Source of the DNA: Halomonas ventosae
GTDB lineage: Bacteria > Pseudomonadota > Gammaproteobacteria > Pseudomonadales > Halomonadaceae
Assembly: GCF_004363555.1 (NCBI RefSeq)
Contig: NZ_SNZJ01000003.1
Location: 62,001-126,000, forward strand
Length of the DNA stretch: 64,000 nucleotides
Direction: 5' to 3'
Notes under the pieces: generated by a model
The model's input: only the letters and a program-made list of their open reading frames with translations
Databases searched by the model: none
What the model was told of the DNA's origin: nothing
Made by a program: the position numbers and the translations under genes
In this document: in pieces, positions 35,983 through 48,121 of the stretch
Numbering within the stretch: the stretch's first letter is position 1
Layout: every line of letters begins with the position of its first letter

Positions 35983-37419
35983 TCAGAGGTCGCGCATCAG
36001 CAGCGCGAACTCGATCCGCTCCGTCGCGATGGGCTCGCCCGGCACCGGGATGCGCACCACGTGGCCGGAGCCGGGCGCGGCGTCCACGGATTCGCCGCGG
36101 CGGTTCTCGATATGCTCGAGCACGAAGCGGCGGTTGCCACCCGGCAGCATCAGCTCCATACCGTCGCCGACCTCGAAGCGGTTCTTGACGTCGACCTCGA
36201 GCACGCCGCGGTCCGGGTCGTAGCCGATCACCTCGCCGACGAACTGCTGGTGCACCCCCACCGAGTTGCCCTGCTCGTAGTTCTGGTACTCGTCGTGGAC
36301 GTGGCGGCGGTAGAAGCCCTCCGTGTAGCCGCGGTTGGCCAGGTTGTCGAGCTCGTCCATCAGGCGCATGTCGAAGGGGCGGCCGGCCACGGCATCATCG
36401 ATGGCGCGCCGATAGACCTGGGCGGTGCGCGCCACGTAGTAGTGGGACTTGGTACGCCCCTCGATCTTCAGCGAGGTGACGCCCATCTCCGTGAGCCGCG
36501 GCACGTGCTGCACGGCGCGCAGGTCCTTGGAGTTCATGATGTAGGTGCCGTGCTCGTCCTCGAACACCGGCATCAGCTCGCCGGGGCGGGTGCGGTCCTC
36601 GATCAGCGCCGAGAGCTCGTCCTGGCCCTCCACGCCGCCCGCGGTGGCGGTGCTCGCCATCGCCTCGATCGGCTGGGCACTGCCGCCGCCGGAGGCAATC
36701 AGGCCGCCCTGCCGCCCCCCGTCCTGGGGCGTCCAGATGCCGCTGCCGGCATGGGCGCGGGCCGAGTTGGCCGGCACCAGGTCGCCGGTCTCGTCGTGGG
36801 CGGCGGCCACGGTGTTGTACTTCCAGCGGCAGGCGTTGGTGCAGGTGCCCTGGTTGGGGTCGCGGTGGTTGAAGTAGCCGGAGAGCAGGCAGCGGCCGGA
36901 ATAGGCGATGCACAGCGCGCCGTGGACAAAGGTCTCGATCTCCAGGTCGGGACACTCGGCGCGGATCTCGGCGATCTCGGCGAGCGACAGCTCACGCGAC
37001 AGGATGATGCGGCTGATGCCCTGCTGCTGCCAGAAACGCGCCGCCGCCCAGTTGACCACGTTGGACTGCACCGACAGGTGGATCACCTGGTCCGGCCAGC
37101 GCTCGCGGATCATCATGATCAGGCCCGGGTCTGACATGATCAGCGCGTCCGGGCCGGCCTCGATCACCGGCTCCATGTCGCGCAGGTAGGTCTTCAACTT
37201 GCTGTTGTGCGGCGCGATGTTCGAGGCCACGTAGAACTGCTTGCCCCGCTCATGGGCGTAGGCGATGCCCTTGTGCAGGTTGTCGATCTTGAAGTCGTTG
37301 TTGCGCACCCTCAGCGAGTAGCGCGGCTGGCCGGCATAGACCGCATCCGCGCCATAGGCGAAGGCGTAGCGCATGTTCTTGAACGTTCCCGCGGGGGAGA
37401 GCAGTTCGGGGGCTTGCAT
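35983..37419 (-). CDS. trhP: Peptidase-U32-like tRNA hydroxylation protein TrhP (YegQ)
   Basis: 478 residues of the U32 family, YegQ branch (E. coli YegQ is TrhP, which makes 5-hydroxyuridine at position 34 of some tRNAs, with prephenate). Conserved elements: PELLSPAGTFKNMRYAFAYG, the Cys-rich block CIAYSGRCLLSGYFNHRDPN then QGTCTNACRW, and EGRTKSHYYVARTAQVYR. The Cys residues of that block may carry an Fe-S cluster. First of several tRNA-modification genes here; it points away from queC, across a 213-bp gap containing a 3-copy heptamer repeat. Confidence 0.9.
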   Translation of the reverse strand: MQAPELLSPAGTFKNMRYAFAYGADAVYAGQPRYSLRVRNNDFKIDNLHKGIAYAHERGKQFYVASNIAPHNSKLKTYLRDMEPVIEAGPDALIMSDPGLIMMIRERWPDQVIHLSVQSNVVNWAAARFWQQQGISRIILSRELSLAEIAEIRAECPDLEIETFVHGALCIAYSGRCLLSGYFNHRDPNQGTCTNACRWKYNTVAAAHDETGDLVPANSARAHAGSGIWTPQDGGRQGGLIASGGGSAQPIEAMASTATAGGVEGQDELSALIEDRTRPGELMPVFEDEHGTYIMNSKDLRAVQHVPRLTEMGVTSLKIEGRTKSHYYVARTAQVYRRAIDDAVAGRPFDMRLMDELDNLANRGYTEGFYRRHVHDEYQNYEQGNSVGVHQQFVGEVIGYDPDRGVLEVDVKNRFEVGDGMELMLPGGNRRFVLEHIENRRGESVDAAPGSGHVVRIPVPGEPIATERIEFALLMRDL

Positions 37420-37498
37420 AGAAGGTCACCGTTGTCAGGACGATGGCGCACGACGGCGCAGGGTGTGAAGGGGGCGCGATTATAGCAGGACAAGGGCC

Positions 37499-37519
37499 GA
37501 ACGCCGAACGCCGAACGCC
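37499..37519. repeat. Tandem heptamer, three copies of GAACGCC
   Basis: Three perfect copies of GAACGCC at 37499-37519, preceded by GGCC. It lies between divergent trhP and queC, 114 bp before the queC start. One base different from the 14-copy heptamer (GAGCGCC) at 60745-60842. Confidence 0.85.
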
Positions 37520-37632
37520 GGAGACTGGAGTTCCCCGGGGCCGGCAGGTCACGTAGACTGTGGCCGTTTCCGGACCGGACCCCGGATCGCCGCGCAAGCG
37601 GCCCGACAAATTCTCCGACCAGAGCTCCCGCC

Positions 37633-38346
37633 ATGAACGACGCTTCTACACCTGCCACCGTGGTGATCTACTCCGGCGGCATGGATTCCTATACCGTGCT
37701 GCACCGGGCCCTGCGCGAGGGGCGCGAGGTCCACGCCCTCTCCTTCGACTACGGCCAGCGACACGCCCGCGAGCTCGAGGTGGCCGCGCGCGTCTGCCGC
37801 AATCTCGGCGTGCCCCACCAGGTGGTGGACATCCGCGCGATCCATGGTCTGATCGACGCCTCGGCGCTCACCGACGCCCGCCGCGCGTTGCCCGAGGGCG
37901 ACTACGCGGAGGAGAACCTCACCGCTACCGTGGTGCCCAACCGCAACATGATCCTGCTCTCGCTGGCCATCGCCAAGGCGGTCAACATCGGCGCCGGACG
38001 GGTCGACTATGGCGCCCACGGCGGCGACCACGTGCTCTACCCCGACTGTCGACCGGAATTCGTCGAGGCGATGAACGCGGTGGCCGGCATCGCCAACTTC
38101 CAGGCCGTCGAGATCCACACGCCCTACCTGCAGGCCGGCAAGGCGGAGATCCTCGCCGACGGCCTGGCCATGGGGCTCGACTACGCCGACACCTGGACCT
38201 GCTACCGGGGGGAGGCGCTGGCCTGCGGACGCTGCGGCAGCTGTCGCGAGCGCCTGGCCGCCTTTGCCGCCAATGACGCCACGGATCCCCTCGGCTATTG
38301 TCAGCGGCCCGACCCCGCCGCCGAACCGGCCAAGGGGGGCGAGTGA
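37633..38346 (+). CDS. queC: 7-cyano-7-deazaguanine synthase
   Basis: 237 residues. PP-loop ATPase motif SGGMDS (14-19), then [27 protein letters not shown] and the C-terminal zinc-site cysteines [19 protein letters not shown]. Converts 7-carboxy-7-deazaguanine to preQ0 using ATP and ammonia, in queuosine synthesis. First gene of queC-queE-queD plus a Cys-cluster gene, each overlapping the next by one to four bases. Confidence 0.94.
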
Positions 38347-39014
38347 TGTACCACGTCAAGGAGGCCTTCTACACCCTGCAAGGCGAGGGCGGCCAGGCGG
38401 GTCGCGCCAGCGTCTTCTGCCGTTTCTCGGGCTGCAACCTCTGGTCAGGCCGCGAGGCGGATCGCACCAGTGCGGCCTGCCGCTTCTGTGACACCGACTT
38501 CATCGGCACCGACGGCCAGAACGGTGGGCGCTTCAGCAGCGCCGAGGCACTGGCCAACCACCTGGCCGCGCTCTGGCCCGACCAGGACGGCCATGATGGG
38601 AGAGCCGCCACCCCCTATGTGGTCTTTACCGGCGGTGAGCCGCTGCTGCAGCTCGACGAGGCGCTGATCCGCGAGATGCACGCCTGCGGCTTCGAGGTGG
38701 CCGTGGAGACCAACGGCACCCTGCCCGCCCCCGCCGGCATCGACTGGCTCTGCATCAGCCCCAAGGGCGACAACGCCCTGGCGATCACCGCGGGCAACGA
38801 GCTGAAGCTGGTCCATCCCCAGGCCGACGCCCCGCCGACGCGCTTCACCCGGCTCGACTTCGACCACTTCTTCCTGCAGCCGATGGCTACCGGGCCGGCC
38901 GTTCCCTCGGGCGACGCCCTGCCCGACACCCTGGCCGAGACCGTGGCCTACTGCCTGGCCCACCCCCGGTGGCGGCTGTCGCTGCAGACCCACAAGATCG
39001 CGGGGATCGACTGA
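38346..39014 (+). CDS. queE: 7-carboxy-7-deazaguanine synthase (radical SAM), CX14CX2C type
   Basis: 222 residues. The Fe-S cluster motif is Cys30, 45 and 48 (CX14CX2C), not the CX3CX2C of most radical SAM enzymes; the long spacing is known for the Burkholderia QueE group. VFTGGEPLLQ and VAVETNGTLPAP are the SAM- and substrate-site segments. Converts 6-carboxytetrahydropterin to 7-carboxy-7-deazaguanine. Starts on the last base of the queC stop codon (TGATG). Confidence 0.93.
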   Translation: MYHVKEAFYTLQGEGGQAGRASVFCRFSGCNLWSGREADRTSAACRFCDTDFIGTDGQNGGRFSSAEALANHLAALWPDQDGHDGRAATPYVVFTGGEPLLQLDEALIREMHACGFEVAVETNGTLPAPAGIDWLCISPKGDNALAITAGNELKLVHPQADAPPTRFTRLDFDHFFLQPMATGPAVPSGDALPDTLAETVAYCLAHPRWRLSLQTHKIAGID

Positions 39015-39859
39015 TGACGCTCTTCGTCAACCGCCTCACCCATCTCGATGTCTCGCTCTGGTGCCCGCGGCGGGGCCTGGTCGGCGCCAGCTGGCAGGTC
39101 GACGCGGAACTCGACGGCGAGCTCGGTGAGGACGGCATGCTGTTCGACTTCGGCGAGGTGAAACCCTGGATCAAGTCGCGACTGGATGGCGACCTCGACC
39201 ATACCCTGCTGGTCCCCACCCGGGCCCAGGGAGTGACGCTCCACGACTGCCGGGAGGGGCTCTGCGTGCGCAGCGAGCGACCCTACCCGCTGGAGGTGCG
39301 TGCTCCGCGCCAGGCGCTGAGCCTGCTGCCCTGGCGCGAGATCACCCCGGAGCGACTCGCCGGCCACCTGGCCACCGAGCTGATGCGCCGCCCGCCGCCG
39401 CGGGTCAGCGACATCCGCCTGAGGCTTAGCGAGGAGGCCATCGAGGGGCCAGCCTACAGCTACAGCCATGGCCTGAAGCAGCATGCCGGCAACTGCCAGC
39501 GCATCGCCCATGGCCATCGTTCGCGCCTGGAGGTCTGGCAGCAGGGGCAGCGCGTCCCGGCCCTCGAGCAGCACTGGGCCGAGTGGCTGGCCGACCGCTA
39601 CCTGGTGGACGAGGCGGATGTCGTCGACGACGACGCGCCCGGCTTCCGCGACCAGCTGAGCTGCCGCTACCGCGCCGAGCAGGGGCACTTCTTCATCCGG
39701 CTCCCGCGCAGTCGCTGCGCGGTGCTGCCGACGCCGACCACGGTGGAACACATCGCCGCCTGGCTGGCCGGGGCCATCGCCCGGGAGAGCGGCCAGGCCA
39801 CGCGGGTCCAGGCCTTCGAGGGCATCGACAAGGGCGCCATCGCCGAGGCCCGGCCATGA
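39014..39859 (+). CDS. queD: 6-carboxytetrahydropterin synthase, two-domain long form
   Basis: 281 residues, twice the usual 120-140. The C-terminal half holds the working site: SYSHGLKQHAGNCQRIAHGH, with the catalytic Cys in GNC and the zinc HxH in HGH. The N-terminal half is a related but degraded copy: it keeps THLD and a Cys (SLWCPRRGLVG), but VGASW stands where HGH is expected. The long form occurs in some Gammaproteobacteria. Makes the QueE substrate from dihydroneopterin triphosphate. Starts with ATGA overlap after queE. Confidence 0.88.
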   Translation: MTLFVNRLTHLDVSLWCPRRGLVGASWQVDAELDGELGEDGMLFDFGEVKPWIKSRLDGDLDHTLLVPTRAQGVTLHDCREGLCVRSERPYPLEVRAPRQALSLLPWREITPERLAGHLATELMRRPPPRVSDIRLRLSEEAIEGPAYSYSHGLKQHAGNCQRIAHGHRSRLEVWQQGQRVPALEQHWAEWLADRYLVDEADVVDDDAPGFRDQLSCRYRAEQGHFFIRLPRSRCAVLPTPTTVEHIAAWLAGAIARESGQATRVQAFEGIDKGAIAEARP

Positions 39860-40125
39860 CCCCTAAGGCCCCTGCCGAGGGCTGTCGTCCGGGGTGCGGC
39901 GCCTGCTGCATCGCGCCCTCGATCAGCTCGCCGATTCCCGGCATGCCCGACGGCAAGCCGGCGGGCGTGCGCTGCGTGCAGCTCGATGACGCCAACCTCT
40001 GCCGGCTGTTCGGTGACCCGCGCCGCCCCGCGGTGTGCACGCGGTTCGACTATGACCCCGAGCTGTGCGGCACGCGACGCGACGAGGCGCTCAGGCGCAT
40101 CGAGGCCCTGGAACTGGCCACCTGA
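39856..40125 (+). CDS. YkgJ-family Cys-cluster protein
   Basis: 89 residues with eight cysteines at about 10, 14, 17, 18, 40, 49, 61 and 71, the pattern of YkgJ proteins (CRPGCGACCIAPSISSPIPG is the core). These bind metal or an Fe-S cluster; role unknown, some are proposed oxidoreductases or metal-cluster proteins. It overlaps queD by ATGA, so it is translated with the queuosine genes and may serve them. Confidence 0.85.
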   Translation: MTPKAPAEGCRPGCGACCIAPSISSPIPGMPDGKPAGVRCVQLDDANLCRLFGDPRRPAVCTRFDYDPELCGTRRDEALRRIEALELAT

Positions 40126-40143
40126 GCCCCGCCCGCCCAACCG

Positions 40144-40170
40144 CAACGGCGCCCCTGGGGGGCGCCGTTG
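40144..40170. terminator. Hairpin between convergent Cys-cluster gene and STAND regulator
   Basis: A perfect 12-bp stem, CAACGGCGCCCC (40144-40155) with GGGGCGCCGTTG (40159-40170), loop TGG. It lies 18 bp after the Cys-cluster stop and 26 bp beyond the regulator's stop at 40196, so it can serve both. No T-run on either strand, so it may need Rho or only stabilise the ends. Confidence 0.5.
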
Positions 40171-40195
40171 TGCTGTGGGGTCGGCCATTGGAGCG

Positions 40196-43100
40196 TCAGG
40201 AGGAGAGGTCCGCGGCATGCGGCAGGCGGCGGTCGAGCAGGGTGCGCCAGCGCGTCAGCACCGGCGCATCACTGTGGCTCACCTCGCCCAGCAGGGCGCG
40301 GAACTCCGACCGGGAGGCCTCGTCGCGAGGATCGATCAGGGTCAGCCAGAGCTCCAGGGCGGCGAGCTGCTGGTGGAGGTTGCCGTCCTCCCGGGCCTGC
40401 AGCAGGGCCTGCTCGGCAAGGCTCCTGACTTCCTCGCGGGAGTGCCCCAGGCGATGGCGGACGCGCGCCAGGTGCACGGCCAGTTCGGGGACGAACAGGG
40501 TGGTGCGCTCGCGGGCGATCATCAGGCACTGGTCGAGGTAGTCCTCGGCCCGGGACAGCTCCCCCAGGGCCAGGCAGGCATCCACGTACCACAGGGCCGG
40601 GCGCTGGTAGGGGTCCCGCCCGGTGACCTCGGCCAGCTCCTCCTGGGCCGACTCGATCTGGCCCAGGCCGTCGCGGTCGCCGGCCAGGGCCCGCTGCCAG
40701 CCCAGCACGCTGCGCGAGGCCACCTGCCAGAGGTGCAGGTCGGGGGTGCCGGTCAGCTCGAAGGCCCGCTCGGCGCGCATGGTGGCCAGGTGCACGTGCC
40801 CCAGCTGGCGATAGAGGGCCGCGGCATACATCAGCGCCATGGCCAGGCTGCCGGGATGGCCGATCCGCTCGGCCAGCCGGATGGCCGACTCCACCTGCCG
40901 CTCGGCACGCTGGTAGTCGCCGCGCAGGCAGAGGGTCCAGCCCTGGAAGCAGGCGGCCGCGACCTGGGGGTGGTCGGAGAACGGCAGCCACTCGATCATC
41001 ATCGAGGCATTGAGCGGGTCGATCTCCTCCAGATGGTCATAGGCCTGGGAGATGCGCCCGGCCCAGTACTCGCAGCTGGCCCGGGCGAAATCGGCCAGAC
41101 GCCGGTAGCGCGGGTCCTCGAGGCGGTCGGCGAGGCCCGCCAGGCGCGAGGCCAGCGAGAAGGCATCGGCATGGGCATGACGCTGGCTGCAGCCCACCCA
41201 CAGGCCCCACTGGACCAGGAAGGCCTGCTCCAGGTCGCCGGCGTCGTCCGGGCCGGCCTCCTCCTGGGCGAGAAGCTCCCGGGCCCGCACGAAGCTCTCG
41301 TGCGCGGTGGGCGAGCCGTGCCCCTCCAGGGCGAAGGCGGCCTGGCCACGCACGGTGAGCAGGCTGATCTCGCGCTCGGCCTGACCCTCGACATGGCGCA
41401 GGCTGGCCAGGCCGAAGTCGGCCATCTTCAGCGCCGTGCGGTTGGCGCTGACCTTGAGGGCCTCCCGCGCAGCCAGCTCGAAGTAGCGGGCGCCGCGGGC
41501 ATAGTGGCCGCTGCGCCGCAGGTGGGTGGCGAAGTCGCCGGGGTGGCGGCTGATCCACATCGGGAAGTGCTCCTCGATCAGGCTGACCACCTGACGATGG
41601 ATGCTCACCCGCACGTCCCGGGGGCAGGAGAGGTAGGCGGCTTCCTGCAGCAGCTGGTGGGTGAACTGGTATTCGCGCTCGCCCTCCTCGCCCTCGGCCG
41701 GTTCGATGATCTCCAGCCGGCGCATCTGCTCCAGCGCCGGCGCCAGGCGGCTCATCTCCCAGCCGCTGCACTCGGCCAGGAAGTCGAGGCGGAAGCGGCG
41801 TCCGAGCACCGCCGCCACATGGGCCACCTCGCGATCGCCGTCGAGCTGGTCGATGCGGCTGGCCAGCAGCCCCAGCAGGCCGCGCGGCAGCTCGTCGAGC
41901 TGCACGCTGCGCCCCTCGCGGCGGTCCATGTCGACCCGGCGGCAGATCTCCTGGAGGTAGAGCGGGACGCCATCGCAACGCTCGATGATCTGGCCGCGCA
42001 GCCGCGGGCTGAGGTGGATGCGATAGCGGCGCGCCAGCTGGGAGAGCAGCCGGGAGGACTGCATGGCATCCAGCCGCCCCAGGGAGATCTGCTGGTCCCA
42101 GTGCAGCTTCGCCGGCAGCGCCTCGCGGCCATGGTGGCTGGCCACCAGCAGGAAGGGGCTGTTGATCGGCAGCCGCGCCTGGAGGCCTGCCAGCACCTTG
42201 AAGGAGGGCTCGTCGAGCCACTGCAGGTCATCGATCATCAGCACCAGGGTGCGCTCGCGGGAGAGCTCGCGGATCAGGCGATGGATGAGTCCCACGACCA
42301 GCTCCACGGCCTCCCCGCTCTGGGCGAGCACCGCCATCTCGCGGGGCTCGCGCACGCCGAGGGCCTCCTCCAGCAGCAGGCGGTGTTCGGCGTCGGGCGC
42401 CTCGGCATCATCGGCGGCCAGCAGGCGCGACAGCGCCTCGGCGTCGATGCGCCCCCCCAGGTGCCAGCGCAGCAGCTGCCGCGCCACCCCATAGGGCTCC
42501 TGGACGGAGAGCCGCGTGGTGGGCTGCCAGCAGATCGCCGCCTCGCGGCTCTGCTCGAGCTGGCGGAAGCCCACCAGCAGCGCCGACTTGCCGAGCCCCG
42601 AGGGGCCCCGTACCAGCACGCTCTGGCGCAGGCCGATGCCGGCCCGGGCCAGGGCATCGCGCAGGGTGCGCAGGGAGCCCTCGCGCCCCACCAGACTGGG
42701 CGGTGGCGCCTCGCGCCCGCCCTCGTTGGTGCCGAGGACCAGCGCCCGCAGGCGCACCCGACCGTCGCTTGCTACCAGCCGCGTCGAGAGCCGCGGCTGG
42801 AGGTCAAGGGCCGGCGGCATGTGCTGGCTGGCGTCCTGGGAGATGACCAGCTCGCTGCCCTCGGCGGCGCTCATCAGGTCGAGGGAGCCCTGGGTCACCT
42901 GGCCGAGCGGGTCGACCAGGTGTCGCTCGGGGAGGTAGACCACCCGCCCGCTGTCCAGGCCGGCGGCCAGTTCGATGCGCGGCGGCTCGCCCTCGCCGCT
43001 CCAGTGGCGCTGGGACTCTTCGGGCAGCACGCGGCGACAGTGCTCGTAGAGCGCCACCAGCTCGGCCAGCTGGTGCGCCGGGCCATGGGTGCCGAAGCAG

Positions 43101-44110
43101 GCCAGGCCCAGGCCGCCGGTCGCCCCGGGCAGCCAGAAGCCGCCGAGGTGGTGGCACTGCTGCTCGAGCCAGCGCATCAGCTCGACCTGCAGCGCCAGGC
43201 AGGCGCGGGCATCGGCGCGGGCCGAGAGGTCGGCCTTGAGTCGCAGGCGAATGGCCATCACCGAGAGCTGGCGCTGCTCGATCTCGTCCTCGCGCAGGGG
43301 AGCGCTGTCCATCGCCAGGGTCCGCGAGAAGGCCCCGCTGGGGCCGAGGTGGGCGCCCTCGGCCTGGGCATCGGACCAGTAGCGTGCCAGCTGCAGGAAG
43401 GAAGGCTCCGGCTGCTGGCCGGAGAGCGCCAGCAGCTGCAGGTAGGCGTTGTACTGCTCGTGGGCGGCGGCCAGCTGGCCCTGCTCGGCCAGCTGGCGCA
43501 CCAGACGTTCATGGAAGGGCCCGTAGCCGGAAAAACGGCTGACCAGCGACTCCAGCACCCCATCCGGCAGCGGTTCCTGGCGCTCCAGGACGCTCTCGGC
43601 GAAGCGGATCACCCGCTGGCGCCACTCGTTACGCACCTGGACCAGCCAGCGCTGGTACTCGGCACAGCTGGTGAGGTGCAGCTCCTCGGCGAGGTCGCCG
43701 CGGTAGCAGGCCAGCACCGCCTCGAGGGTGGCCACCTCGGCGGGGCCCTCGAGCAGCGCCTGCAGCCGGTGCATGTCGAAGTGCCAGCGCTCCGGCAGCC
43801 GGAAGGCAATGGTCTGGCGGGAGACCGACAGCACCCGCTCGGCCTCTTCGCCCAGGGACTGACGCAGGCAGTGCAGGGCGTGGCGCAGGTTGGTACGTCC
43901 CGACGACAGGCCCTGGTCGGGCCACAGCAGTTCGGCCAGGGTGGCGCGACTGACCGGCTGGTCGTGGAGCAGCAGGTAGACCAGCAGCGCCTTGACCTTG
44001 TCGTAACTGAACTGGGTCAGGACATCGTCGCCCAGACTCAGTGAAAAGTGGCCGAAGAGTGCCAGGTGGTCCCGGTCATCGTTATGTACGTCGTCGGCAG
44101 CATCCCGCAT
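40196..44110 (-). CDS. Large regulator: OmpR-like wHTH and BTAD, degenerate nucleotide-cyclase domain, STAND ATPase, TPR
   Basis: 1304 residues (1307 if the ATG at 44119 is used; AGGA lies nine bases before 44110 and abuts 44119). Residue numbers count from 44119. Order: winged helix (about 19-110: KVKALLVYLLLHDQPVSRAT, LWPDQG), bacterial transcriptional-activation domain BTAD (about 112-255), a region like a class III nucleotide cyclase (about 278-432), a STAND/AAA ATPase (Walker A GPSGLGKS about 505-512; Walker B LVLMIDDLQWLDEPS about 625-638), then helical TPR-like repeats to the end. In the cyclase-like part the two metal-binding Asp and the Asn/Arg pair are replaced (GATGGLGLACFG for the GDG segment; VTQGSLDLM for VNxAxRL), so no cyclase activity is expected. 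It starts 33 bp after miaE on the same strand and may be in its operon. Targets unknown. Confidence 0.85.
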   Translation of the reverse strand: MRDAADDVHNDDRDHLALFGHFSLSLGDDVLTQFSYDKVKALLVYLLLHDQPVSRATLAELLWPDQGLSSGRTNLRHALHCLRQSLGEEAERVLSVSRQTIAFRLPERWHFDMHRLQALLEGPAEVATLEAVLACYRGDLAEELHLTSCAEYQRWLVQVRNEWRQRVIRFAESVLERQEPLPDGVLESLVSRFSGYGPFHERLVRQLAEQGQLAAAHEQYNAYLQLLALSGQQPEPSFLQLARYWSDAQAEGAHLGPSGAFSRTLAMDSAPLREDEIEQRQLSVMAIRLRLKADLSARADARACLALQVELMRWLEQQCHHLGGFWLPGATGGLGLACFGTHGPAHQLAELVALYEHCRRVLPEESQRHWSGEGEPPRIELAAGLDSGRVVYLPERHLVDPLGQVTQGSLDLMSAAEGSELVISQDASQHMPPALDLQPRLSTRLVASDGRVRLRALVLGTNEGGREAPPPSLVGREGSLRTLRDALARAGIGLRQSVLVRGPSGLGKSALLVGFRQLEQSREAAICWQPTTRLSVQEPYGVARQLLRWHLGGRIDAEALSRLLAADDAEAPDAEHRLLLEEALGVREPREMAVLAQSGEAVELVVGLIHRLIRELSRERTLVLMIDDLQWLDEPSFKVLAGLQARLPINSPFLLVASHHGREALPAKLHWDQQISLGRLDAMQSSRLLSQLARRYRIHLSPRLRGQIIERCDGVPLYLQEICRRVDMDRREGRSVQLDELPRGLLGLLASRIDQLDGDREVAHVAAVLGRRFRLDFLAECSGWEMSRLAPALEQMRRLEIIEPAEGEEGEREYQFTHQLLQEAAYLSCPRDVRVSIHRQVVSLIEEHFPMWISRHPGDFATHLRRSGHYARGARYFELAAREALKVSANRTALKMADFGLASLRHVEGQAEREISLLTVRGQAAFALEGHGSPTAHESFVRARELLAQEEAGPDDAGDLEQAFLVQWGLWVGCSQRHAHADAFSLASRLAGLADRLEDPRYRRLADFARASCEYWAGRISQAYDHLEEIDPLNASMMIEWLPFSDHPQVAAACFQGWTLCLRGDYQRAERQVESAIRLAERIGHPGSLAMALMYAAALYRQLGHVHLATMRAERAFELTGTPDLHLWQVASRSVLGWQRALAGDRDGLGQIESAQEELAEVTGRDPYQRPALWYVDACLALGELSRAEDYLDQCLMIARERTTLFVPELAVHLARVRHRLGHSREEVRSLAEQALLQAREDGNLHQQLAALELWLTLIDPRDEASRSEFRALLGEVSHSDAPVLTRWRTLLDRRLPHAADLSS

Positions 44111-44143
44111 GGTGATCATTCCTGCGTGGCGGAAGTGATGGCC

Positions 44144-44788
44144 TCAGGCCGGCACGCCGCTGTGAAAACGAAAGGCCGTGTCCGGCATGGTGACCAGCTC
44201 GGCCTCGCGATCGGAGAAGAAGGCGATACGCGCGTCGATGGGCGCCGTGGCCAGGCGGCGCGCCAGCATCAGGTAATCCTCGAAATGACGGCCTTCCGAC
44301 TTAACCAGACTGCGATAGAACTTGGCAAGTTCATCATCCAGATGCGGAATCAGGCGGGCAAAGCGCTCGCAGCTGCGTGCCTCGATCAGCGCCCCGATGA
44401 TCAGGATGTCCACCAGGCGCTCCGGTTCCTCTCCCCGCACGTGGCGACGCAGCCCCTCGGCGTAGCGCGAGGCACTGATATGGCGATAGACGATGCCCCG
44501 CGCCTCCATCAGCTTGACGACCTGCTCGAAGTGCAGCAGCTCCTCCCGGGCCAGTTGGGACATCTTGGTGAGCAGCAGCGGCTGGTCCACATAGCGGTAG
44601 AGCAGGCTCATGGCCGTGGAGGCCGCCTTCTTCTCGCACTGGGCGTGGTCGATCAGCAGCAGCTCGGGGTTGGCCAGGGCCCAGTCGACCCACGCCTCCG
44701 GGGTGGCACAGGGCAGGAACGCCAGCAGCTCGGCAGGCAGCAGGTCCCGGCAATCGGTCGTCTCGAGGGTTGGCATCGGGGGCATCAT
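44144..44788 (-). CDS. miaE: tRNA 2-methylthio-N6-isopentenyl adenosine hydroxylase
   Basis: 214 residues, ferritin-like four-helix bundle with a diiron site: Glu52 (CEKKAAS), EELLHFEQV (Glu and His), a third helix with EARSCERFARL and a last with SEGRHFEDYL. Hydroxylates ms2i6A37 of tRNA with O2. The start overlaps the DUF1289 stop as ATGA, with AGGA three to six bases upstream. Likely co-transcribed with the DUF1289 gene and perhaps the STAND regulator. MiaE needs oxygen, so the modification reports O2 in some bacteria. Confidence 0.92.
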   Translation of the reverse strand: MMPPMPTLETTDCRDLLPAELLAFLPCATPEAWVDWALANPELLLIDHAQCEKKAASTAMSLLYRYVDQPLLLTKMSQLAREELLHFEQVVKLMEARGIVYRHISASRYAEGLRRHVRGEEPERLVDILIIGALIEARSCERFARLIPHLDDELAKFYRSLVKSEGRHFEDYLMLARRLATAPIDARIAFFSDREAELVTMPDTAFRFHSGVPA

Positions 44789-45240
44789 GGTTCCTGTGTC
44801 GGCGGGTCAAGGGGGTCGGGAAGCAGCGCCTGTCGCCGCTCGGCGGCGGCCAGCAGGTCGGTGGTGATGCGTTCATGAAGCGCGGCGGCGTCCTCGCCGT
44901 CGCGACCGACCAGCCCGTAGCACGACAGGTCGCGGATGCGGCCGCGTCCCACCCGCAGCAGCTCCACGGCGCGCGAGAGCGGCGGCTGCTCATCCCGGAA
45001 GCGGATCCGGTGACGGCGCAGCTGGGCCTCCAGGCTCTCGGGGTCGACGACCACCAGGAAGCGCCCGGCGACCTCGGCGCGCAGCCTGTCCAGCTCGGCC
45101 ATGCGTTGCTGTCGCTGCTCGCCGGAGAGGGCCGGCCAGTCGCGGATCTCACCGTCGACGCGCTGACAGCCACGGCACACCCGGTCGCCCAGGGTGGTCG
45201 AGCAGAGACCGACGCACGGCGAGGTGATGCGCTCTCCCAT
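44785..45240 (-). CDS. DUF1289 domain protein
   Basis: 151 residues. The first 45 are the DUF1289 Cys motif (SPCVGLCSTTLGDRVCRGC, then EIRDWPALSGEQ), perhaps a metal-binding knuckle. The rest is basic and helical and not recognised. The ATG at 45240 has a strong ribosome site GGAGGAG three bases upstream; the longer upstream reading is not supported. Its stop overlaps the miaE start. Function unknown; coupling to miaE suggests a tRNA-related or redox role. Confidence 0.85.
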   Translation of the reverse strand: MGERITSPCVGLCSTTLGDRVCRGCQRVDGEIRDWPALSGEQRQQRMAELDRLRAEVAGRFLVVVDPESLEAQLRRHRIRFRDEQPPLSRAVELLRVGRGRIRDLSCYGLVGRDGEDAAALHERITTDLLAAAERRQALLPDPLDPPTQEP

Positions 45241-45252
45241 GTCTCCTCCCGT

Positions 45253-45281
45253 TGACGTTAACGTGCGTTGACATAACGTCA
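45253..45281. promoter_or_regulatory. Inverted repeat upstream of the DUF1289-miaE operon
   Basis: TGACGTTA (45253-45260) and TAACGTCA (45274-45281) are exact reverse complements 13 bp apart. The left arm overlaps the shorter palindrome ACGTTAACGT. It lies 13 bp before the DUF1289 start, close enough to affect its transcription or translation. The regulator is unknown. Confidence 0.5.
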
Positions 45282-45359
45282 TGGTAACGCGGGAGACCCC
45301 GGGCTGGCAGCCCGAAGTTGCCGCCGACCAAAGTTCAAGGCCGCCACGGCGGGCCCAGC

Positions 45360-45388
45360 TTAACATTGTCGACAGTTTCCTCTATGAT
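45360..45388 (+). promoter_or_regulatory. Promoter of acnB with a central palindrome
   Basis: TTAACA (45360-45365), 17-bp spacer, TATGAT (45383-45388): a good sigma-70 match. The spacer starts with the palindrome TGTCGACA (45367-45374), a possible repressor site. Transcription would begin near 45395, giving a leader of about 120 nt. The leader can form CTGGCA/TGCCAG (45407-45412 with 45425-45430) and GCCGAAGC/GCTTCGGC (45443-45450 with 45485-45492). Confidence 0.65.
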
Positions 45389-45517
45389 CGCGGCACCGCT
45401 GACACCCTGGCATCAGGAAGGGTCTGCCAGACGTTTTCCCGCGCCGAAGCGTGCCTTACGTCGACGCTCGACTGAGGTCTGCCGGCTTCGGCCACCACCA
45501 CCGATGAGGGCCCCAAC

Positions 45518-48121
45518 GTGCTTGAAGCCTATCGCCAACATGTCGAGGAGCGCGCCGCCGACGGCGTGCCGCCGAAGCCGCTGAACGCCGAGCAGGTCGC
45601 CGCACTGGTCGAGCTGCTGAAGAACCCGCCGGCCGGCGAGGAGGAGTTCATCCTCGACCTGCTCACCAATCGCGTTCCGCCCGGCGTCGACGAGGCGGCC
45701 TACGTCAAGGCCGGTTTCCTGACTGCCATCGCCAAGGGCGAGGCCGAGTCCCCGCTGATCGACAGGGTCCACGCGGTGAAGCTGCTGGGCACCATGCAGG
45801 GCGGCTACAACATCGTCTCCCTGGTGGAACTGCTCGACGATGCCGACCTGGCCAAGGAAGTGGGCGAGCAGTTCAAGCACACCCTGCTGATGTTCGACGC
45901 CTTCCACGACGTGGAAGAGCGCGCCAAGGCCGGCAACGCCGTGGCCAAGGACGTCATCCAGTCCTGGGCCGAGGCCGAGTGGTTCCTCTCCAAGCCGGCC
46001 CTCAAGGAGAAGATCACCCTCACCGTCTTCAAGGTGCCGGGCGAGACCAACACCGACGATCTCTCCCCCGCCCCGGACGCCTGGTCGCGCCCCGACATCC
46101 CAGTGCACGCCAACGCCATGCTCAAGAACGAGCGCGACGGCATCGAGCCCGAGGTGCCCGGCACCACCGGTCCGCTCAAGCAGATCGAGGCGGTGAAGGC
46201 CAAGGGCTTCCCCGTCGCCTACGTGGGCGACGTGGTCGGCACCGGCTCCTCGCGCAAGTCCGCCACCAACTCCGTGCTGTGGTTCTTCGGCGACGACATC
46301 CCCAACGTGCCGAACAAGCGCGCCGGCGGCTTCTGCTTCGGCGGCAAGATCGCCCCGATCTTCTTCAACACCATGGAAGATTCCGGCGCCCTGCCGGTGG
46401 AGATGGACGTCTCCGGCCTCGAGATGGGCGACGTCATCGACGTCTATCCGTATGAAGGCAAGGTGTGCAAGCACGGCACCGACGAGGTCGTGACCACCTT
46501 CGAACTCAAGACCCAGCTGATCCTCGATGAGGTGCGCGCCGGCGGCCGTATCCCGCTGATCATCGGCCGCGGCCTGACCACCAAGGCGCGTGAGTCCCTG
46601 GGCCTGGCGCCCTCCGACGTGTTCCGCCTGCCCGAGCAGCCCAAGGACACCGGCAAGGGCTTCACCCTGGCCCAGAAGATGGTCGGCAAGGCCTGCGGCC
46701 TGGACGGCGTGCGTCCGGGCATGTACTGCGAGCCGAAGATGGCCACCGTCGGCTCCCAGGATACCACCGGCCCGATGACCCGCGACGAGCTCAAGGACCT
46801 CGCCTGCCTGGGCTTCCAGGCCGACCTGGTGATGCAGTCCTTCTGCCACACCGCCGCCTACCCGAAGCCGGTGGACGTGGACACCCACCACACCCTGCCC
46901 GACTTCATCATGAACCGCGGCGGCGTCTCGCTGCGTCCGGGCGATGGCATCATCCACAGCTGGCTGAACCGCATGCTGCTGCCCGACACCGTGGGCACCG
47001 GCGGCGACTCTCACACCCGCTTCCCGCTGGGCATCTCCTTCCCGGCAGGCTCCGGCCTGGTGGCCTTCGCCGCCGCCACCGGCGTGATGCCGCTGGACAT
47101 GCCGGAGTCCGTGCTGGTGCGCTTCAAGGGCAAGCGCCAGCCCGGCGTCACCCTGCGTGACCTGGTCCACGCCATCCCCTACTACGCCATCCAGAACGGC
47201 CTGCTGACCGTCGAGAAGTCAGGCAAGAAGAACGCCTTCTCCGGCCGCGTGCTGGAGATCGAGGGCCTCGAGGACCTCACCGTCGAGCAGGCCTTCGAGC
47301 TCTCCGACGCCTCCGCCGAGCGCTCCGCCGCGGGCTGCACCATCACCCTGTCCGAGGACAGCGTGAGCGAGTACCTGAAGTCCAACATCACCCTGCTCAA
47401 GTGGATGATCGCCAACGGCTACGGCGACCGCCGTACCATCGAGCGCCGCATCCAGGGCATGGAGGAGTGGCTGGCCGACCCGAGCCTGATGCGCGCCGAT
47501 CAGGACGCCGAGTACGCCGAGGTCATCGAGATCGACCTCGAGGAGCTCAGGGAGCCGGTCCTGTGTGCGCCGAACGATCCGGACGACGCCCGCCTGCTCT
47601 CCGAGGTCGCCGGCGAGAAGATCGACGAGGTGTTCATCGGTTCGTGCATGACCAACATCGGCCACTTCCGCGCCGCGGGCAAGCTGCTCGAGAAGCAGCC
47701 GGCCGGCAGCCTGAAGACCCGCCTGTGGCTGGCCCCGCCGACGAAGATGGACCAGCACCAGCTGACCGAGGAGGGCTACTACGGCATCTACGGTCGCGCC
47801 GGGGCACGCATGGAGATGCCGGGCTGCTCGCTGTGCATGGGCAACCAGGCCCGCGTCGCCGCCAAGAGCACCGTGGTCTCCACCTCGACCCGCAACTTCC
47901 CCAACCGCCTGGGCGACGGTGCCAACGTCTACCTCGCCTCCGCGGAGCTGGCGGCCGTGGCCGCCGTGGAGGGTCGCCTGCCCACCGTCGACGAGTACCG
48001 CCGCTACATGGGCGAGTTCGACGCCATGGCCGGGGAGATCTACCGCTACATGAACTTTCACGAGATCGAGGAGTATCAGAACGCCGCCTCCAACGTGATT
48101 CCGGTCGCGCAGGAAGCCTGA
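45518..48121 (+). CDS. acnB: Aconitate hydratase B (bifunctional aconitase/2-methylisocitrate dehydratase)
   Basis: 867 residues, the AcnB length. HEAT-like domain 1-160 ([20 protein letters not shown]), swivel domain about 165-370 ([13 protein letters not shown]), then the catalytic core. The three cluster cysteines are in [12 protein letters not shown] and [13 protein letters not shown] cycle: citrate to isocitrate; AcnB proteins can also bind mRNA when iron is low. The start is GTG with GAGGG seven bases upstream, matching the E. coli N-terminus exactly in position. Terminator at 48208-48234. Confidence 0.96.

Follow-up and report, generated by a model that had tools for sequence, protein, structure and literature searches.

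Why should a gene for tRNA hydroxylation be followed, in genome after genome of one bacterial family, by a gene for a putative transcription regulator with a cyclase-like domain that has lost its catalytic residues? The question is raised by a stretch of 64,000 nucleotides from Halomonas ventosae (RefSeq assembly GCF_004363555.1, contig NZ_SNZJ01000003.1, positions 62,001 to 126,000 of the forward strand), hereafter called the window, in which a minus-strand open reading frame (ORF) at 40196-44119, intact and free of internal stops, lies directly behind miaE. We consider it fairly probable that the encoded protein, referred to below as the regulator, belongs to the large-SARP/STAND kind of transcription factor and is switched by ATP. 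Its gene is probably co-transcribed with miaE, and its cyclase-like domain (the pseudo-cyclase) would serve as a non-catalytic control module. The ORF encodes 1307 amino acids when read from its first ATG (44119) and 1304 from the ATG at 44110. Residues are numbered here from ATG 44119, and the residue numbers of a preliminary description of this locus are therefore 3 lower. The gene and its domains are as follows:

40196-44110 (alternative ATG 44119), minus strand: gene of the STAND regulator; stop-free ORF with a conserved start
43784-44068, minus strand: probable OmpR-type DNA-binding head, about residues 18-112; weak Trans_reg_C match at 44-95, AfsR/EmbR fold matches, conservation
43355-43783, minus strand: BTAD helical domain, about residues 113-255; BTAD matches in orthologues, helices in the model
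42734-43288, minus strand: pseudo-cyclase domain with replaced catalytic residues, about residues 278-462; fold matches and motif alignment
42143-42694, minus strand: STAND NOD core (AAA_16), residues 476-659, with Walker A at 505-512 and Walker B at 625-634; PF13191, E=4.2e-21
40370-41002, minus strand: MalT-like TPR region, residues 1040-1250; PF17874 (TPR_MalT), E=3.5e-9, below cut-off

The cyclase-like domain

The catalytic columns were assigned by motif alignment to three active-looking STAND cyclases (L118, L121 and L128) and followed through 88 orthologues, comprising the window, 80 named loci and seven divergent members chosen from the G genomes, with identities down to about 44%. The first metal-binding Asp (position 291) is replaced by Arg in 86 orthologues and by Ala in two, and the second (position 336) by Gly in all 88. 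At the position of the specificity Lys (332) 86 sequences have Gly and two Ala, that of the transition-state Asn (410) is Gln in 87 and Arg in one, and its Arg partner (414) has become Glu (56 orthologues), Asp (22), Ala (8), Ser (1) or Asn (1). With both metal Asp residues replaced in 88/88 orthologues, the alignment rules out a two-metal mechanism of catalysis.

The same domain is strongly conserved. Over 81 sequences, conservation amounts to 0.867 in the helix-turn-helix (HTH) part of the head (18-112) and 0.864 in the cyclase domain (283-462), followed by 0.824 for residues 661-850, 0.766 for the TPR region, 0.759 for BTAD and 0.728 for the AAA part (476-660). The pseudo-cyclase thus ranks with the DNA-binding head, above the ATPase core, the 661-850 segment and the TPR region, and the two best conserved 30-residue blocks of the protein, both at 0.99, are head residues 61-90 and cyclase residues 331-360, with TPR block 871-900 next at 0.96. 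That a dead domain is as conserved as the head, and reaches 0.99 at 331-360, speaks for a functional module without catalysis, which may be a pocket or an interface.

The fold was approached with AlphaFold2 models of residues 1-475 (mean predicted local distance difference test score, pLDDT, 57.9) and of the cyclase domain alone (mean pLDDT 63.2). In Foldseek searches the longer model retrieved the class III cyclase CyaC (1wc4; E=2.8e-5, template modelling (TM) score by target 0.50), and the domain-alone model had CyaB as its top match (E=7.7e-4). VIA-align superposed residues 279-441 of the modest-confidence AlphaFold2 model on CyaB (3r5g) with a Z of 14.4 and a root-mean-square deviation of 3.9 over 155 aligned residues. 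The match to the NCBIfam model TIGR03903 (TOMM kinase/cyclase fusion) spans the domain by its coordinates. A distant relative (L117 of genome G260, 28% identity) has a Guanylate_cyc match at the corresponding place, between BTAD and AAA. On these models, residues 278-462 are assigned to the class III cyclase fold.

The preliminary description had held that the domain lacks the metal Asp and the Asn/Arg pair, and it was right, as residues 291, 336, 410 and 414 show in the 88 orthologues. It had also named, beforehand, the folding of 278-432 as a cyclase as the point on which it could fail; in the modest-confidence models that fold was recovered, with the CyaB superposition given above. The order that it proposed, from an OmpR/BTAD head through the cyclase-like domain and the STAND ATPase to TPR repeats, is supported by Pfam and fold matches, the head itself being weak in sequence.

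DNA-binding head, ATPase and the proposed switch

The head is probably of the OmpR/BTAD (SARP) type. In the window protein, the Pfam match to Trans_reg_C is weak and below cut-off (residues 44-95; E=0.006 for a 475-residue piece). The same model is found at E<=10 in 38 of 40 family sequences and lies below cut-off in all nine orthologues scanned singly. BTAD matches at E<=10 occur in 30 of the 40 family sequences, the window protein not being among them, and rise above the cut-off of 22.1 bits in two of the nine single scans (L053, 25.3 bits; L150, 23.2 bits). With the model of residues 1-475, Foldseek returned AfsR (8hvr; E=1.6e-4, TM by query 0.20) and EmbR (2ff4; E=3.8e-4, TM by query 0.17), both ranking below the cyclases; most of residues 1-81 have a pLDDT below 50 in this model, so that the fold matches of the head rest on a low-confidence part.

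The ATPase is clearer. The AAA_16 match of the window protein is above its Pfam cut-off, and the Walker A residues G505, G508, G510, K511 and S512, the Walker B residues D630, D631, Q633 and W634, and the GxP motif GVPLY (717-721) are present in 88/88 orthologues. Because these three motifs are invariant, a switch by ATP of the AfsR/MalT kind may be assumed. TIGR03903 is the sole NCBIfam match of the protein (residues 265-1250, E=1.6e-62), with 211.8 bits lying far below the curated cut-off of 705.75. No kinase domain was found among Pfam matches of the window protein at E<=1, and the PADLOC models of anti-phage defence gave 0 families at E<=1.

We propose the following scheme for the switch, its ligand and its DNA targets. 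At rest, the TPR sensor and the NOD would keep the DNA-binding/BTAD head inactive. Binding of an inducer to the TPR region, or to the pseudo-cyclase, would lead to exchange of ADP for ATP in the NOD, and the ATP-bound NOD would then self-assemble, allowing the head to bind next to -35 elements. Placed between head and NOD, the pseudo-cyclase could relay the signal to the head or bring two heads together as a dimer.

What, then, keeps a dead cyclase in place? Judging by its conservation, its role is most likely allosteric or dimerising, and it may hold a nucleotide pocket; two more specific versions can be weighed against each other. It may be a true ligand sensor, in which a purine-nucleotide pocket no longer catalyses and reports the nucleotide state to the head, a version to which we give distinctly less than an even chance. 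It would explain why the former active-site residues are near-invariant in their new form (R291 86/88, G332 86/88, G336 88/88, Q410 87/88) and why segment 331-360 is conserved beyond the needs of a mere spacer. However, the loss of both metal Asp residues and of the specificity Lys (G332) removes the usual triphosphate contacts, and a dimer or domain interface would leave the same conservation. Cyclase folds are natural dimers. That the domain is a structural or dimerising link only, the TPR region alone sensing as it does in MalT, comes near to an even chance, if a little below it: every canonical catalytic residue is gone, and the accessible parts of two articles describe MalT-kind STAND transcription factors as sensing through TPR (PMC4381067, PMC6468293), but conservation peaks at beta2-beta3 and the following helix of the former active site. 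Activity with unusual residues, for which the Mycobacterium tuberculosis cyclase-LuxR protein Rv0386 with its alternative substrate binding offers a precedent (PMC3466318, as far as its accessible text goes), is hardly credible here, as all 88 orthologues lack both metal-binding Asp residues.

The miaE neighbourhood

Two genes lie upstream of the regulator on its own strand:

44144-44788, minus strand: miaE, tRNA-(ms2io6A) hydroxylase; PF06175, E=2.2e-75; NF047790 matched below its cut-off
44785-45240, minus strand: DUF1289 gene; PF06945, E=2.8e-14; start read by eye

How constant this arrangement is was asked of the 80 named loci and of a second set of 30 genomes chosen for divergence or odd search results, not at random. 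The order miaE then regulator, on the same strand, holds in 80/80 named loci and in 23/23 orthologue-bearing genomes of the second set, down to 44% identity, these 23 including four copies that look broken or split. Seven members of the second set are not counted: four give partial STAND matches, two give no match, and G260 has its 28% relative elsewhere. The preliminary description had placed the regulator 33 bp past miaE on the same strand; this was borne out in the window, where miaE has its stop at 44144 and the conserved ATG lies at 44110, and the position after miaE proved to be conserved in all Halomonadaceae loci compared.

The distance from the miaE stop is 33 bp for ATG 44110 and 24 bp for the upstream ATG 44119. 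An ATG is found 26-36 bp past the miaE stop in 68 of the 80 named loci. Of the 12 remaining loci, 11 have their nearest ATG 47-120 bp away; the twelfth, L043, is an odd case that was counted as having no ATG at 26-36 bp, and the overlap computed for it may be an artefact of the frame. Because this spacing is kept and a CAGGA-like element precedes ATG 44110 (alignment of 15 sequences), ATG 44110 is taken, on the aligned sequences, as the better start. In the window the stop of the DUF1289 gene overlaps the start of miaE, and the three genes probably form an operon, with DUF1289 first, then miaE, then the regulator. As DUF1289 was detected in only 38 of the 67 loci with full flanks, the constant pair of the locus is miaE-regulator. 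A separate promoter had been named by the preliminary description as a second point on which it could fail. A scan of the minus strand from 40000 to 45700 found no consensus sigma-70 site, a result of little weight since it detects none for miaE or DUF1289 either. Between the regulator and the convergent CxxCxxCC gene, a GC-rich perfect inverted repeat (40144-40170, 12-bp arms, 3-base loop) could act as a shared terminator; it has no T run and was not flagged by the same scan.

Within reach in the 67 full-flank loci are miaE in 67, acnB in 60, the CxxCxxCC gene in 58 and queC in 54. Seven of these loci lack both acnB and CxxCxxCC and keep the miaE-regulator pair; together with L043 they form one clade and so represent few events; L047 and L101 have different upstream flanks. 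In L068, a member of this clade, the pair is preceded by genes resembling those for enoyl-CoA hydratase and 3-hydroxyisobutyrate dehydrogenase and followed by UDP-glucose-dehydrogenase-like and Wzz genes. In L172-L177, which represent six genomes from five further genera, none of the five genes that lie downstream in the window was found within roughly 6 kb past the regulator. miaE is kept in nine genomes that lack the regulator (L161-L169), among them G004, which has a partial STAND match at another place, and in five (L161, L162, L164, L165 and L166) acnB stands beside it; the stretches compared covered about 5.5-6.5 kb after and about 1 kb before miaE, so that acnB may be present in the other four. 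The miaE-regulator pair thus outlasts changes on both flanks, and the acnB-miaE order is independent of the regulator, which leaves room for inertia of the pair.

Across the family, the regulator is matched at E<=0.001 in 175 of 201 Halomonadaceae genomes, four of these (G004, G028, G044 and G078) having partial STAND matches only, and miaE is present in 199 of the 201. miaE therefore does not need the regulator. The best 80 named relatives come from Halomonas, Billgrantia, Vreelandella, Litchfieldella, Aidingimonas, Modicisalibacter and others. The miaE-regulator pair is present in H. elongata (L108), for example. The H. ventosae genome has a single match at E<=0.001; other genomes have up to five matches each, and single copy is accordingly stated for this genome only. 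A search across the order gave matches at E<=1e-20 in 23 of 293 genomes, of which nine belong to the Halomonadaceae; the matches from outside the family share 23-29% identity, chiefly in the ATPase and TPR regions, L117 alone being full length. A profile of the cyclase domain found one genome of 321 across the class, that of H. ventosae itself.

Is the link to miaE, then, one of function or of position? We see the chances as evenly balanced that it is positional only, the regulator having landed behind miaE in the ancestor of the family and stayed there by inertia, with targets unrelated to tRNA. The flank is old and stable, as acnB adjoins miaE without the regulator too, miaE is kept where the regulator is missing, and the sole full-length relative found outside the family is not at miaE. 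On the other hand, miaE is beside the regulator in every full-flank locus, which none of acnB, CxxCxxCC and queC achieves, and seven loci keep the pair without acnB and CxxCxxCC, albeit within the one clade. If the link is functional, a single operon would connect tRNA modification with a transcription factor. MiaE of Pseudomonas aeruginosa is an ms2i6A/i6A hydroxylase according to the accessible text of PMC12300143. One might imagine the pseudo-cyclase binding adenine nucleotides that bear an isopentenyl or hydroxyisopentenyl group, such as free i6A/io6A-type nucleotides released by tRNA turnover; the regulator would then gauge what MiaE produces, and with it the supply of oxygen and iron, and set transcription in response. 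We regard this as very improbable; if true, it would amount to feedback from tRNA modification to transcription within one operon.

Several observations weigh against our reading of the regulator as an ATP-switched transcription factor with a non-catalytic cyclase module. The domain-alone model is weak in fold searches, with only two chains at E<=0.001, and AlphaFold2 confidence is modest, the pLDDT falling below 50 in the head and, in the model of the cyclase domain, over its last 60 residues. The cyclase domain has no Pfam match in the family sequences and no PDB sequence match, searches with two profiles and the whole protein having given chance-level matches only, and hhalign against the three active-looking STAND cyclases gave little support, with a probability of 7% in global mode (E 0.0014 in one comparison) and 3% in local mode. 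The regulator is also dispensable over evolution: 26 of the 201 genomes have no match and four more a partial STAND match, the gene is split or frame-broken in G043, G098 and G137 and, by a two-piece match, perhaps in G006, and G092 and G143 have one in-frame stop each. Such broken or interrupted copies appear, from their sequences, to be cases of occasional loss. The split or broken copies of G043, G098, G137 and G006 still adjoin miaE.

Other features of the region were considered as possible partners or targets. Besides miaE, several tRNA-modification genes flank the regulator in the window: 35983-40124 holds trhP (prephenate-dependent tRNA U34 hydroxylase; NF011996, 756 bits), queC, queE and a gene for a large queD-like PTPS protein. 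The last of these (38969-39859) encodes a QueD/PTPS-type protein of 296 amino acids with two PTPS stretches, against the 92-124 positions of QueD-type models. In the 67 full-flank loci trhP is within reach in 30, queE in 50 and the queD-like gene in 50. A functional link of the regulator to trhP and the que genes was rejected, this being a clade-level neighbourhood that is absent from the roughly 6 kb after the regulator in L172-L177 and from the stretches around miaE of the nine regulator-less genomes.

Two candidate binding sites were likewise discarded. Two exact GTCAAC repeats, 16 bp apart, lie at 45240-45290 just before the DUF1289 ribosome site; among 71 intergenic sequences such a close pair occurs only in the window, L031 and L033. 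A conserved block in the acnB-miaE gap (18 loci) corresponds to a putative acnB promoter and is also present in regulator-less genomes. This putative promoter (45359-45388) consists of CTTAACATTGTCGACAG plus a TATGAT -10 element, and is a candidate site of an acnB regulator. With at most 2 mismatches, this motif is present in 17 of the 23 sequences compared, regulator-less genomes included, and in the H. ventosae genome there is one exact copy and one more with 2 mismatches, against 1 in the control.

Comparison with known systems

The Halomonadaceae are a family used in biotechnology, and the regulator is kept in most of them without a description that we could find: among the papers listed by searches of PubMed Central, which includes few subscription papers, there was no account of the regulator, of its make-up or of any regulator adjacent to miaE, and no paper there names both miaE and Halomonas. 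Degenerate GGDEF domains are known to be reused as non-catalytic control modules, and a dead but frozen cyclase offers a clean test of whether the cyclase fold is reused in the same manner in STAND proteins.

Five kinds of protein invite comparison. In mycobacterial CHD-LuxR regulators an ATPase lies between the cyclase domain and the HTH, and the LuxR HTH is at the C end. MalT lacks a cyclase domain, and its LuxR HTH is C-terminal. Its NOD core and MalT-like TPR region are shared with the regulator, and in the accessible parts of the MalT articles an inducer bound to the TPR sensor opens the NOD with ATP, upon which the protein multimerises (PMC4381067, PMC6468293). The CHD-LuxR proteins Rv0386, Rv1358 and Rv2488c resemble the regulator in joining a cyclase homology domain and an HTH in one protein, with cyclase activity reported for Rv0386 (PMC3466318, accessible text), whereas the cyclase of the regulator is dead by sequence and its head is probably OmpR/BTAD-type and N-terminal rather than LuxR-type. 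TIGR03903, the TOMM kinase/cyclase fusion, shares the cyclase-STAND-TPR part (265-1250); the regulator differs from it in having a probable OmpR/BTAD-type head instead of a kinase, and in its dead cyclase.

L117 of G260 has the same order over its full length (BTAD E=2.9e-23, Guanylate_cyc E=3e-5, AAA_16 E=5.8e-27). Its cyclase motifs, as read from the translation, have Glu for the first Asp and Gly for the second and so look degenerate too, but it lies away from miaE and is too distant for orthologue status. The order of head, BTAD, NOD and TPR is that of the AfsR-type large SARPs, and AfsR and EmbR match the head of the regulator by fold, in a part of the model that has low confidence. As the accessible text on AfsR has it, the SARP head is held back by NOD and TPR, a block that ATP lifts, and the binding sites of SARPs are direct repeats with 11- or 22-bp spacing close to -10/-35 elements; the large-SARP scheme in that text is without a cyclase-fold domain, whereas the regulator has one between BTAD and NOD (PMC10936776). 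The regulator also differs from AfsR-type proteins in being found outside actinomycetes, and at miaE rather than at an antibiotic gene cluster. Overall, the regulator fits the large-SARP/STAND kind plus one extra module.

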